64,000 bases of DNA from Brevundimonas subvibrioides (GTDB lineage Bacteria > Pseudomonadota > Alphaproteobacteria > Caulobacterales > Caulobacteraceae). The stretch is from contig NZ_CP114542.1 of assembly GCF_027271155.1 (NCBI RefSeq), positions 2,909,989 through 2,973,988 on the forward strand, written 5' to 3'. Shown here piece by piece: positions 1,271-9,715 of this stretch. Every line of letters starts with the position of its first letter. Position 1 is the first letter of the stretch. The notes beneath the pieces are model-generated. The model was not told where the DNA came from. It saw nothing but the letters and a program-made list of their open reading frames with translations, and made no database searches. Position numbers and translations under genes: made by a program.

Positions 1271-1840
1271 TCAGGCGGCGTTGGCGGCCTTGCCCTTGGC
1301 CCTGGCGGCCTGGGCGTCTTCATGGGCGCGCATGCCGATGGCGATCAGCTCGGCGGCCTCGCCAGCGTCTCCCCAGCCCCGGACCGTGACCGACTTGCCC
1401 TTTTCCAGGTCCTTGTAGCGGCTGAAGAAGTGCTCGATCTGCTCGACCAGGATGGTCGGCAGCTGCCGATAGCTGGCAATATCGGTGTAGTAGGGGTTCA
1501 GCTTGTCGACCGGCACGGCCAGGATTTTTTCGTCGCCACCGGCCTCGTCGACCATCTTCAGCACGCCGATCGGGCGCGAACGGATGATGCAGCCCGGCAC
1601 CACCGGCGTCGGGTTCAGCACGATGACATCGCAGGGGTCACCGTCGTCCGACAGGGTATGCGGAATGAAGCCGTAGTTGCCGGGATAGTACATCGACGTA
1701 TGCAGGAAGCGATCGACGAACAGGGCACCCGAGGCCTTGTCCATCTCATACTTGACCGGCAGGCCGCCCTGCGGGATTTCGATGACGACGTTGATGTCCC
1801 AGGGCGGGTTGGGTCCGACGGGAATAGCGTCGAGGTTCAT
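1271..1840 (-). CDS. ppa: Inorganic pyrophosphatase (family I, soluble)
   Basis: The gene encodes a 189-residue family I pyrophosphatase that hydrolyses PPi to two phosphates in the cytoplasm and so pulls biosynthetic reactions forward. The metal-binding aspartates are visible: D66 and D71 in [13 protein letters not shown], and D98 and D103 in [11 protein letters not shown]. The substrate-binding segment [15 protein letters not shown] lies near residues 21-35. The start [19 protein letters not shown] is typical of alphaproteobacterial Ppa, and the longer upstream reading is not needed. A short alanine- and lysine-rich tail (AKGKAANAA) ends the protein. The gene is divergent from the DUF599 gene across about 106 bases. 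Confidence 0.95.
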
Positions 1841-1946: not shown

Positions 1947-2648
1947 ATGACGGCAATCGACGGGCTGGGACTGGCGCTCTTCTTCCTGTGCTGGCTGGGG
2001 TACGACCCCTTGCTGCGCGTCCTGGCCCACCGCAGCGGATCGCTGAACTCGGACATGCTGACCATCCGCCATGCCTGGATGACGGCGATGACGCACCGGG
2101 AGATCCGGCTTCTGGACAGCCAGCTTCTGGGGCATTCGATCAATTCGGGTTCGTTCTTTGCCTCGTCCAACCTGCTGCTGATCGCAGGGGTCGGCGGCAT
2201 CCTGTTCGGCGGGGATCAGGCCCTGCAGGGGTTCACCGCCGTCGGCGCGGAGGATGTGCCGGTCAAGCTGCTTGAGGCCAAGCTGGGCCTGGTGCTGCTG
2301 TGCCTGGCCCGAGGCCTACTCGATTTCATCTGGTCGATCCGGCAGATGAACTATGCGCTGGCCCTGATCGGGGCCGCGCCGGAAGTGCATTCGGAGGGCG
2401 ACCGGATCGCCTTCGGTGAGGCCACGGCCGAGGTGCTGAACCCGGCGCTTGCCGCCTTCAGCCAGGGGGTCAGGGGATACTATTTCGCCCTGGCCGCCGC
2501 CGCATGGCTGTTCGGGCCGATCTGGCTGGCGGCCGGGGTGCTGTCGGTGTTCGCCCTGCTGGTCTGGCGTCAGTCCGCCTCGCCGGCCGCCCGGGCGATC
2601 CGTACGGCAAGACGGCTGATCGAGGTCAATCGCGCGTCCGGAACCTGA
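1947..2648 (+). CDS. DUF599 domain-containing integral membrane protein
   Basis: The product has 233 residues, with hydrophobic segments near 4-22, 72-88, 110-128 and 190-220. It matches the layout of DUF599 proteins, including the early D-P-L-L-R segment and the conserved stretch WMTAMTHREIRLLDSQLLG around residues 44-62. The start ATG 1947 is preceded by GGAG four bases upstream. No biochemical function is established for the family. The gene is divergent from ppa and is followed by the intergenic sRNA region. Confidence 0.85.
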   Translation: MTAIDGLGLALFFLCWLGYDPLLRVLAHRSGSLNSDMLTIRHAWMTAMTHREIRLLDSQLLGHSINSGSFFASSNLLLIAGVGGILFGGDQALQGFTAVGAEDVPVKLLEAKLGLVLLCLARGLLDFIWSIRQMNYALALIGAAPEVHSEGDRIAFGEATAEVLNPALAAFSQGVRGYYFALAAAAWLFGPIWLAAGVLSVFALLVWRQSASPAARAIRTARRLIEVNRASGT

Positions 2649-2652
2649 CATT

Positions 2653-2663
2653 TTGCACTGCAA
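2653..2663. promoter_or_regulatory. Palindromic operator TTGCA-C-TGCAA (PhaR-like candidate)
   Basis: This is a perfect 5-bp inverted repeat around one central base, five bases after the DUF599 stop. The same TGCAnTGCA core recurs at 2788-2796 inside the spacer of the sRNA promoter. TGC/GCA palindromes are typical of PhaR, the polyhydroxybutyrate regulator of alphaproteobacteria. The assignment to PhaR is an inference. Confidence 0.45.
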
Positions 2664-2776
2664 TATGATTGGCGGTCATAGGGAGCGTCCGTTTCCCGCC
2701 GTGAAATCGCTTGCATCGCGCCACACGGGCATTTCGGTCGGTAACACGGCGTGATCGCAGGCGCGTTAAACCTTGC

Positions 2777-2804
2777 TTGACGTATTGTGCATTGCAACCT
2801 AGCT
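2777..2804 (+). promoter_or_regulatory. Promoter of the alpha-r8-like sRNA with an embedded operator
   Basis: A -35 element TTGACG (2777-2782) and a -10-like CTAGCT (2799-2804) are separated by 16 bases, which predicts a transcript start near 2811. The palindrome TGCATTGCA (2788-2796) lies between the two hexamers, so a protein bound there would occlude RNA polymerase. The -10 box is weak; the -35 is close to consensus. Confidence 0.55.
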
Positions 2805-2810
2805 TGAACT

Positions 2811-2892
2811 TCGACGCCTCCGGGCGTCTTGCCCTTCCTGGGCGTTTCCTCCCTATAGACTTTATGCCGCGCCCTCGGGCGCGGCTTTTTTT
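2811..2892 (+). ncRNA. Probable alpha-r8 / MmgR-family small RNA
   Basis: The predicted transcript is about 82 nt. It starts with a hairpin GACGCC-tccg-GGCGTC (2813-2828), has a small stem GCCC-ttcct-GGGC (2831-2843), then the sequence TTTCCTCCCT (2845-2854), and ends in a strong intrinsic terminator. The decamer TTTCCTCCCT is, from memory, the ultraconserved core of the alphaproteobacterial alpha-r8 (MmgR) family, whose members are about 77-80 nt and in Sinorhizobium affect PHB storage. The C/U-rich core could pair with Shine-Dalgarno sequences of target mRNAs. Length, terminator and core agree; family membership rests on the motif and not on an alignment. Confidence 0.65.
2866..2892 (+). 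terminator. Intrinsic terminator of the sRNA
   Basis: A perfect 9-bp GC stem (GCCGCGCCC, 2866-2874, with GGGCGCGGC, 2877-2885) carries a two-base TC turn and is followed by seven T (2886-2892). It also sits directly before the end of the convergent amidohydrolase gene. Confidence 0.93.
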
Positions 2893-2900
2893 GGCCGCTG

Positions 2901-3773
2901 TCACAGTTTGTCGGCGGCCAGTTCCGCGATCACCCCGGCCAGGGCAGACCTGAAGCTCTCATACTCCGACGAAGGCTCCAGGGTGCGCTCGTCCAGATAG
3001 AGGGCGCGGTTGATCTCCACCTGTAGCGCTTCATATCCAGCCCCCGGTCGCCCCCAGTGCTGGGTGGCATAACCGCCGGCATAGGGCGCGTTCAGCCCGA
3101 CCCGCCACCCCCGGGCCTCGAAAAGGGCGCGCGCCCGACGTGAGGTCGCCGACCGGCAGGCCGCCCCGTGACGGTCTCCCAGGATGATGTCCACGCTCCT
3201 CTGCCCCCGGCCGGGCACACCGGCCGCCCGGGACGGCATCGAATGCCAGTCGACCAGCATGGCCATGCCGTGACGGTGCCTGGCCGCAGCCATCAAGGCC
3301 TGCAAGGCCGCATGGTAAGGTGTGTGAACCCGCGCGATCCGGCCCTCGGCCTCGGCCAGCGAAAGGCGGCGGTCATAGAGCGGGGTGCCGTCACCCGCAC
3401 GCCGCGGAACCACCCCGAACCCCGCGGCGACCTTGCCGGTCGGTTCGGCCATCGGCGCATCCTCGATCAGGACCGGATCGATCTCGGTCGGAGATCGATT
3501 CAGGTCCAGATAGGCGCGCGAGATCCGGGCGCTCAGGACCGGAACACCATGGTCGGCGCCGACCGCGATCAGGCGATCGACGGCCACGTCCTCGGCGCTT
3601 CTCAGAGTCAGCGGGGACAGGCCGGGGACCGAACGCATGTCATCGGGCCTGTGAGCCCCGGAGTGCGGCGAGGCGAAGACCAGACGCCCCGCCGGTCCGC
3701 CGGGCCAGACGATGTCGAACACGTCGCCCGACGGGATCGAAGGCGGCGGATGTGGGCTCGGCTCAGGGGTCAC
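2901..3773 (-). CDS. N-formylglutamate amidohydrolase family protein
   Basis: The product has 290 residues and belongs to the zinc-dependent N-formylglutamate amidohydrolase (HutG-type) family, which releases glutamate and formate from N-formylglutamate in one branch of histidine degradation. The zinc-site motif FASPHSG lies near residues 33-39, DLNR near 112, and VDWHSMPS near 190. The first fifteen residues are proline-rich and poorly conserved, so a later start cannot be excluded. No other hut genes are nearby, so the physiological substrate is uncertain. The gene is divergent from cpdR across 125 bases and its 3' end faces the sRNA terminator. Confidence 0.85.
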   Translation of the reverse strand: MTPEPSPHPPPSIPSGDVFDIVWPGGPAGRLVFASPHSGAHRPDDMRSVPGLSPLTLRSAEDVAVDRLIAVGADHGVPVLSARISRAYLDLNRSPTEIDPVLIEDAPMAEPTGKVAAGFGVVPRRAGDGTPLYDRRLSLAEAEGRIARVHTPYHAALQALMAAARHRHGMAMLVDWHSMPSRAAGVPGRGQRSVDIILGDRHGAACRSATSRRARALFEARGWRVGLNAPYAGGYATQHWGRPGAGYEALQVEINRALYLDERTLEPSSEYESFRSALAGVIAELAADKL

Positions 3774-8867: not shown

Positions 8868-9673
8868 CAGGCGGCGATCCGGGCGGCGCGATAGTCCGAC
8901 GGAGACTGGCCGAAACGACGCCCGAAGGCCCGCGCGAAGCTGGCGTTGTTCAGATAGCCGTTCTCATAACCGACCGAGGACACCGGCAGGTCGGTGGTGG
9001 CCAGCATCAGACTGGCCTGGGTCAGGCGGCGCTCGGCCAGCGCCTCGGCGACGCTGCAGGCGAACATCTGGCGAAACCCTCGGGTCAGCTTTTCGCGGTT
9101 GAGACCGCATTGGGCGGCGATGCCATGCAGGGAAAGCTTCTCCCGCCATTGTTCGTCGATCAGTCGGCGTGCGGTCAGCAGACGCAGGCTGTCGGCGCGC
9201 GACATGTCGCTGTCGCCCGCGACCGGCACCATGACGCCCTTGTCCAGGGCGCTCCAGGTCTCGCACAGCAGCTCGATCGACTTGGCGGTACGATAGATGT
9301 CACCGGCCTCGCTGACGCGTTCACAGTCGCGCAGGGCCAGGGCGATGGCCCGCAGGTCGCTGGGCAGATGATAGGTCAGGCGGTCGTCGGCACCGGGCAG
9401 GGTGAGGGCGCTGATGCGCGCCAGCCCCGAGGCTGCGATCAACAGCAGGATGCGGGTGACGCCCGTGTCCTCGCCGACGAGGTCCTGCGCATGGGCGATC
9501 CCCGCGAGGGTCAGGGTCGCCGGCGTGTCGATGGTGCCGAAGCCGAAGACGGCGGCGACCGCCGCGTCGGGCATGGGGAAATCGGCGAACGGCCCTCGAC
9601 CGATCAGGACGGTGAGTTCAGGCGAAACGACGAGGCAGCGACGGGCCACGGCCACGGGCGGCGACTGATCCAT
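8867..9673 (-). CDS. AraC-family transcriptional regulator
   Basis: A 268-residue protein with a C-terminal AraC/XylS double helix-turn-helix (about 165-265). The first helix set includes LSLHGIAAQCGLNREKLTR and the second VGYENGYLNNASFARAFGRRFG, ending in SPSDYRAARIAA. The N-terminal half is unassigned and probably senses a ligand. The start MDQSPPVAVAR (9673) has GGGAGG nine bases upstream; a longer in-frame reading into the oxidase gene is rejected. It is the promoter-proximal gene of the AraC - FadR - MFS - dehydrogenase operon and has two operators 43-80 bases upstream. Confidence 0.88.
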   Translation of the reverse strand: MDQSPPVAVARRCLVVSPELTVLIGRGPFADFPMPDAAVAAVFGFGTIDTPATLTLAGIAHAQDLVGEDTGVTRILLLIAASGLARISALTLPGADDRLTYHLPSDLRAIALALRDCERVSEAGDIYRTAKSIELLCETWSALDKGVMVPVAGDSDMSRADSLRLLTARRLIDEQWREKLSLHGIAAQCGLNREKLTRGFRQMFACSVAEALAERRLTQASLMLATTDLPVSSVGYENGYLNNASFARAFGRRFGQSPSDYRAARIAA

Positions 9674-9715
9674 GATGTTCCTCCCGCCTCTCTGCGGAGG
9701 CTGAAGCCACGGTGG

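Follow-up and report, generated by a model that had tools for sequence, protein, structure and literature searches.

The closest known relatives of the RNA presented here belong to the alpha-r8 (suhB/mmgR) family. In Caulobacter crescentus the family is represented by the four copies sisA-D, and the available parts of the corresponding paper (PMC12559287) describe SisA as nearly constitutive and as a repressor of TonB receptors and of hppA. Seed pairing was demonstrated with the mRNA of a single receptor, the other targets being predicted to pair likewise, sisA was reported to be linked to an FGase gene, and the regions upstream of sisA-D were described as having no shared motif, with independently controlled siblings (PMC12559287, same parts).

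In Sinorhizobium meliloti a member of the same family, MmgR (RF00519), carries a PhaR/AniA-type dyad between -35 and -10. According to the accessible part of a review, mmgR control depends on this conserved dyad (PMC8401924). In EMSA, PhaR bound with good efficiency to the mmgR promoter, whose site reads CAATTGTGCACCGCAGCATTA; a PhaR motif bound at the mmgR and phasin promoters was described for S. meliloti, and the site CTGCNNNGCAG was given for PhaR of R. sphaeroides (available sections of PMC12542648). MmgR of S. meliloti also has an NtrC input. The SisA paper (PMC12559287) does not use the word "PhaR" in its main text, and in the available portions of the papers joining alpha-r8 and Caulobacter no PhaR operator is mentioned for the region upstream of sisA. 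The 2017 MmgR paper, Lagares 2016 or Ceizel Borella 2018 may already cover promoter conservation beyond S. meliloti.

Identification of a sisA-type alpha-r8 RNA

In the window, the whole stretch of 64,000 nucleotides from Brevundimonas subvibrioides which was analyzed, a match to the Rfam family RF00519 was identified on the plus strand at 2824-2900, with 60.7 bits at a cut-off of 41 and spanning positions 1-77 of the 77 model positions. A full-length score above the cut-off settles the membership in the alpha-r8/MmgR family, which the original prediction had claimed and for which it had proposed a covariance-model search as a check. The gene encoding an N-formylglutamate amidohydrolase (FGase) adjoins the RNA tail to tail, its stop codon at 2901-2903 facing the RNA end at 2892, and the upstream neighbor is a DUF599 gene ending at 2648. 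Since the FGase gene is convergent and a linkage of this kind was reported for Caulobacter sisA (PMC12559287, available parts), the locus is the sisA-type copy, and by sequence comparison the window RNA is a sisA-type alpha-r8 small RNA of Caulobacteraceae. It has the decamer, the weak hairpin, the terminator, the FGase linkage and the bacterial family in common with SisA (and SisB-D), whereas the first arm of its 5′ hairpin lies upstream of the Rfam match, a difference from MmgR of S. meliloti. It is thus a clear homologue of both MmgR and SisA, and the addition made here is its predicted input.

The match is the only one above the cut-off in the whole 2.97 Mb genome, in contrast to the four sis copies described for C. 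crescentus (PMC12559287, available parts), and a genome with a single strong copy would be simpler for testing the input. Ten weaker RF00519 matches reach at most 20.1 bits, and none of the seven inspected (L002-L008) contains the decamer; they were rejected as additional copies, several of the seven being plainly terminators. Matches to RF02837 (23.3 bits, cut-off 49.5) and to mir-6579 (32.1 bits, cut-off 47) were put down to chance. Many of the sampled family genomes hold several RF00519 matches (among the matches listed), and so the RNA, which had been called "the Caulobacterales member", is a member of the family but not its sole one; it is the FGase-linked one.

The elements which the original prediction had listed for 2777-2892 were recovered apart from one stem length, and the observation as a whole was confirmed (Table 1). 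The -35 element and the weak -10 element were found at a distance of 17 bp, the fold of the proposed 82-nt RNA contains both hairpins, with an estimated 5′ end, and the decamer TTTCCTCCCT is present. The terminator ends in the seven T that had been noted, but its stem has 8 bp instead of 9.

Table 1. Features of the sisA-type locus, in window coordinates.
Feature	Position	Strand	Basis
-35 element TTGACG	2777..2782	+	sequence; TTG at the same palindrome offset in 56/59 FGase-linked family promoters among the matches listed
Predicted PhaR/AniA-type operator TTGTGCATTGCA in the -35/-10 spacer, with palindrome TGCATTGCA at 2788-2796	2785..2796	+	motif match
-10 element TAGCTT (weak), 17 bp after -35	2800..2805	+	sequence; TA in 59/59 palindrome-anchored promoters among the matches listed
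alpha-r8 (suhB/mmgR, SisA-type) small RNA, ~82 nt	2811..2892	+	RF00519 match, fold; 5′ end estimated from -10
5′ hairpin GACGCC/GGCGUC	2813..2828	+	fold; 5′ arm upstream of Rfam match
Weak hairpin GCCC-N5-GGGC ahead of core	2831..2843	+	fold, alignment
15-nt invariant block GGGCGTTTCCTCCCT including decamer TTTCCTCCCT (2845-2854), putative anti-Shine-Dalgarno seed	2840..2854	+	alignment
Rho-independent terminator with an 8-bp stem closed by a 4-nt loop and followed by seven T	2866..2892	+	fold (stem-loop 2866-2885), covariation
FGase gene, convergent	2901..3773	-	PF05013, 229.7 bits; sisA-type locus marker

Structure and conservation of the RNA

For the comparison within the family, 147 alpha-r8 loci were used, namely the window's own and 146 relatives among the matches listed, some of the lowest-scoring of which are probably not real. 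An FGase gene was found within the fetched stretch in 59 of them (tblastn, and again by profile). The alignment comprises the 56 distinct sequences out of these 59, duplicates being left out. A second set of named loci was built from 80 fetched loci, of which 67 were kept and 13 without the core were left out; it includes C. vibrioides OR37, C. segnis and C. radicis, and the C. crescentus laboratory strain stands outside it. The two sets overlap, as 12 of the 67 named loci have an upstream sequence identical to one of the family set.

The RNA folds with -40.6 kcal/mol (z -5.5), and none of 200 shuffled sequences was equally stable. The decamer occurs once in the window and by chance in 7 of 100 shuffles. 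Its position provides the single-stranded UUUCCUCCCU on the 3′ side of the weak hairpin, as the alpha-r8 family requires, with a mean unpaired probability of 0.93 in the window RNA and of 0.88 over the 59 FGase-linked loci among the matches listed, one of which lies below 0.5. The block GGGCGTTTCCTCCCT is identical in all 56 distinct FGase-linked sequences among the matches listed.

A 5′ stem of 5–8 bp is present in all 59 FGase-linked loci among the matches listed, in 23 different stem sequences. Its register shifts between genera (by eye), and therefore the stem was counted per sequence. Stems of at least 6 bp were found in 53 of the 59 loci, compared to 17% of resampled sequences, whereas stems of at least 5 bp are common by chance (39% of resampled sequences). 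In the terminator, both-sided (compensatory) changes support five of seven predicted pairs (alignment, RNAalifold); a terminator-like site alone is not rare, as one was found in the scanned sequence at a shuffle average of 0.5. RNAalifold, applied to the 56-sequence alignment, returned neither the 5′ hairpin nor the GCCC/GGGC hairpin and proposed pairing inside the invariant block instead, which counts against a simple reading of the alignment.

The close tail-to-tail arrangement, with 2892 and 2901-2903 as the facing ends, and the recurrence of the sRNA/FGase pairing in 59 of the 147 loci among the matches listed would also fit a locus which acts mainly in cis, through overlapping transcripts that interfere with each other. 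We consider this very unlikely, given that the seed block is invariant, that a homologue acts in trans (PMC12559287, available parts) and that the FGase match starts 200–675 nt from the core in several loci.

A conserved palindrome within the promoter

A strict E. coli-type promoter scan of 2600-3000 reported no promoter. Despite this empty scan, CTTG...TA elements and their spacing are conserved across the family. The palindrome YGCRNYGCR was found upstream of all 59 FGase-linked loci among the matches listed, whereas 200 resamplings averaged 6.8 out of 59 and never exceeded 14. When sequences were anchored on the palindrome, columns which had not been used to choose it turned out to be conserved as well: CTTG lies 9–12 nt and TT 2–3 nt before it, and TA follows 12–13 nt past its start in 59/59 FGase-linked loci among the matches listed. 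These fixed distances of CTTG and TA place the dyad inside the 17-bp spacer.

Among the matches listed, 56 of the 59 loci with and 29 of the 88 without a detected FGase linkage contain the strict pattern TTG-N8-YGCRNYGCR-N3-TA, as do 62 of the 67 named loci. It occurs a single time in the window when both strands are counted, and in the other scanned loci of the same genome (509 kb on both strands, partly overlapping) this same site alone was found. The palindrome itself is present in all 67 named loci holding the core, including C. vibrioides OR37, C. segnis and C. radicis, and thus the promoter palindrome of the window is shared by named Caulobacter loci. Among the 88 listed loci without a detected FGase linkage, 44 have it anywhere in the 95 nt upstream, and in 36 it falls within the interval that had been set.

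The same grammar and the conservation of the stems while their sequence varies speak to whether the locus could be an untranscribed, decayed alpha-r8 copy kept by chance. The empty E. coli-type scan would suit such a relic. With all elements intact, a full-length Rfam match and a promoter built like those of its relatives, this reading is hardly credible.

Two further palindromes were observed upstream of other family members among the matches listed. ACAACGTTGT is located upstream in 5 of the 88 loci without a detected FGase linkage (L134, L142, L149, L165 and L174) and also upstream of the FGase-linked L115 and L126, and TAGCGCTA upstream in 6 of the 88 (L012, L037, L081, L082, L089 and L092). 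Both may be LacI-type operators, TAGCGCTA possibly belonging to a second sugar-type regulator. A second PhaR-like site, TTTTGCACTGCA, lies at window 2651-2662, 134 bp ahead of the operator in the promoter; a site matching it was absent at that place in the eight other genus loci inspected.

A probable link to PhaR and PHB

The window site TATTGTGCATTGCAACC agrees with the PhaR/AniA operator of the S. meliloti mmgR promoter. PhaF and PHB accumulation had been mentioned in the original prediction, which had missed the PhaR-type operator lying between -35 and -10. The host genome encodes PhaR (PF07879, 107.1 bits) as well as a PHB synthase, phaC (PF07167, 243.2 bits), and 79 of 80 genomes from the family have a PF07879 match. 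Perfect TTGYGCRNTGCA sites occur four times in the 2.97 Mb genome. One is the window operator, and another, at C1:1341716-1341727, precedes a phasin gene (PF09361) by ~115 nt. Compared with the PhaR/AniA regulon, which comprises phasins, PHB depolymerases and mmgR, the operator sequence and an operator-bearing phasin gene are alike in the host, binding being predicted. Taken with its one-mismatch variants, the operator pattern is hardly enriched in the host genome (96 matches compared to 80 for the reversed control). The conservation strongly suggests control of the promoter by PhaR.

The remaining two perfect PhaR-like sites were located at C1:2857881 (L189) and C1:872244 (L188); by eye, one of them lies upstream of an ammonium-transporter-like gene and one 25 nt before an ORF of 368 aa.

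In the FGase-linked copies sampled, a PhaR-type operator recurs at a fixed promoter position, in contrast to the absence of a shared motif upstream of sisA-D described in the available parts of the Caulobacter paper (PMC12559287). If PhaR binds there, stored carbon would be tied directly to an sRNA governing nutrient uptake.

The palindrome across Alphaproteobacteria

The comparison was extended to 68 loci (64 + 4) from a sample of 142 alphaproteobacterial genomes, without a core-match filter. In phaR-bearing genomes of this sample 27 of 37 FGase-linked loci contain the palindrome, where resampling gave 3.7 on average and at most 10, and 15 of 27 other loci contain it as well; beyond the family, 10 of the 37 FGase-linked loci of such genomes are without it. 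Its position varies in the class sample and often overlaps or follows the -10 element (by eye). In genomes without a detected PhaR, the palindrome was present in none of four loci, compared to 42 of 64 (P = 0.018), a test on four loci which ignores phylogeny. Of 17 weaker loci added later, the four having at least 13 of 15 core bases were counted, and the proportions became 1/5 without detected PhaR and 43/67 (P = 0.07). A loss of the operator along with phaR is therefore suggestive only, as judged from these genomes. The exception is an alpha-r8 locus with the palindrome, L270, in genome G145, in which no PhaR domain was found.

This retention in G145 bears on another reading, according to which an ordinary alpha-r8 sRNA is transcribed from a strong constitutive promoter and the palindrome serves a non-PhaR regulator, DNA shape or promoter strength. 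Caulobacter SisA, described as nearly constitutive in the available parts of PMC12559287, would match it as well. We regard it as unlikely, because S. meliloti PhaR binds this motif at the mmgR and phasin promoters (PMC12542648, available parts), the host phasin gene carries the same site and PhaR was detected in all but one of the 80 family genomes.

The reading that we prefer, with a probability of roughly 0.74, is that a PHB-sensing PhaR gates a sisA-type anti-Shine-Dalgarno sRNA, presumably of the Hfq type. Transcription, the binding of PhaR, the direction of control, the use of Hfq and the targets are what we infer in it. At low PHB, free PhaR would occupy the spacer palindrome, blocking RNA polymerase. 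Once PHB granules form, PhaR would be titrated away and the RNA would be made. The exposed GGCGUUUCCUCCCU, presumably on Hfq, could then pair with ribosome-binding sites, hppA being the best candidate, and repress translation.

Candidate targets

The original prediction had proposed repression by a C/U core which pairs with Shine-Dalgarno sites. Repression by such pairing with a ribosome-binding region has been demonstrated for Caulobacter SisA (PMC12559287, available parts) and may by analogy apply to the window RNA. Among the possible targets, hppA is the best candidate and is put forward as a predicted lead. Of the 29 genus loci, 19 have GGAAACGCC, a perfect 9-nt complement of GGCGUUUCC, directly ahead of the hppA start, and a complement of at least 7 nt to the sRNA seed is present in 26 of the 29; in this count the partial L339 and L340 were left out, L299 was added and genome G240 was counted twice. 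In the wider family sample, where 23 of 30 loci were examined and the remainder were partial, 20 of the 23 hppA starts are without GGAAACGCC, which limits the lead to the genus.

As background, a start-site match of at least 8 nt was found in none of the 126 window ORFs of at least 150 aa (spurious ones included) and in 2 of 308 ORFs from other loci of the same genome, a count which excludes the hppA locus itself and in which both matching loci had been fetched for GGAAACG. Duplex energies computed for the hppA region had no control and were set aside. Near ATG codons of the host genome GGGAGGAA has 8 matches compared to 2 for the reversed control, but a strong Shine-Dalgarno sequence resembles GGGAGGAA anyway, and hence the excess is no target evidence. 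The corresponding excess of GGAAACG (64 compared to 13) was left uninterpreted, as the reversed control differs in its dinucleotides. Phasin was rejected as an unsupported direct target, its start region giving a seed match of 4–5 nt (by eye).

A wider proposal, whose chances appear evenly balanced, concerns all Caulobacteraceae including C. crescentus SisA: the main alpha-r8 RNA would act as a PhaR/PHB-gated "feast" signal which represses genes for nutrient uptake and energy, namely TonB receptors and hppA, the CrfA sponge would cancel it in famine, and the siblings would have been re-wired to other sensors, as the ACAACGTTGT and TAGCGCTA palindromes might reflect.

Finally, several further sequences were observed. 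At C1:38095 (L343) a gene that by eye is aldehyde-dehydrogenase-like shows the identical 9-nt match. By eye, the start region of hppA in a locus of another genus (L293, genome G010) contains another 7-nt complement of the sRNA core, GGGAGGA. The minus-strand ORF at window 1271-1840 resembles a soluble inorganic pyrophosphatase by eye, hppA being a membrane pyrophosphatase. On the minus strand at window 9671-9685, GGGAGGAACATCATG precedes a 268-aa ORF, by eye like an AraC-type regulator, with an 8-nt complement to the sRNA core.
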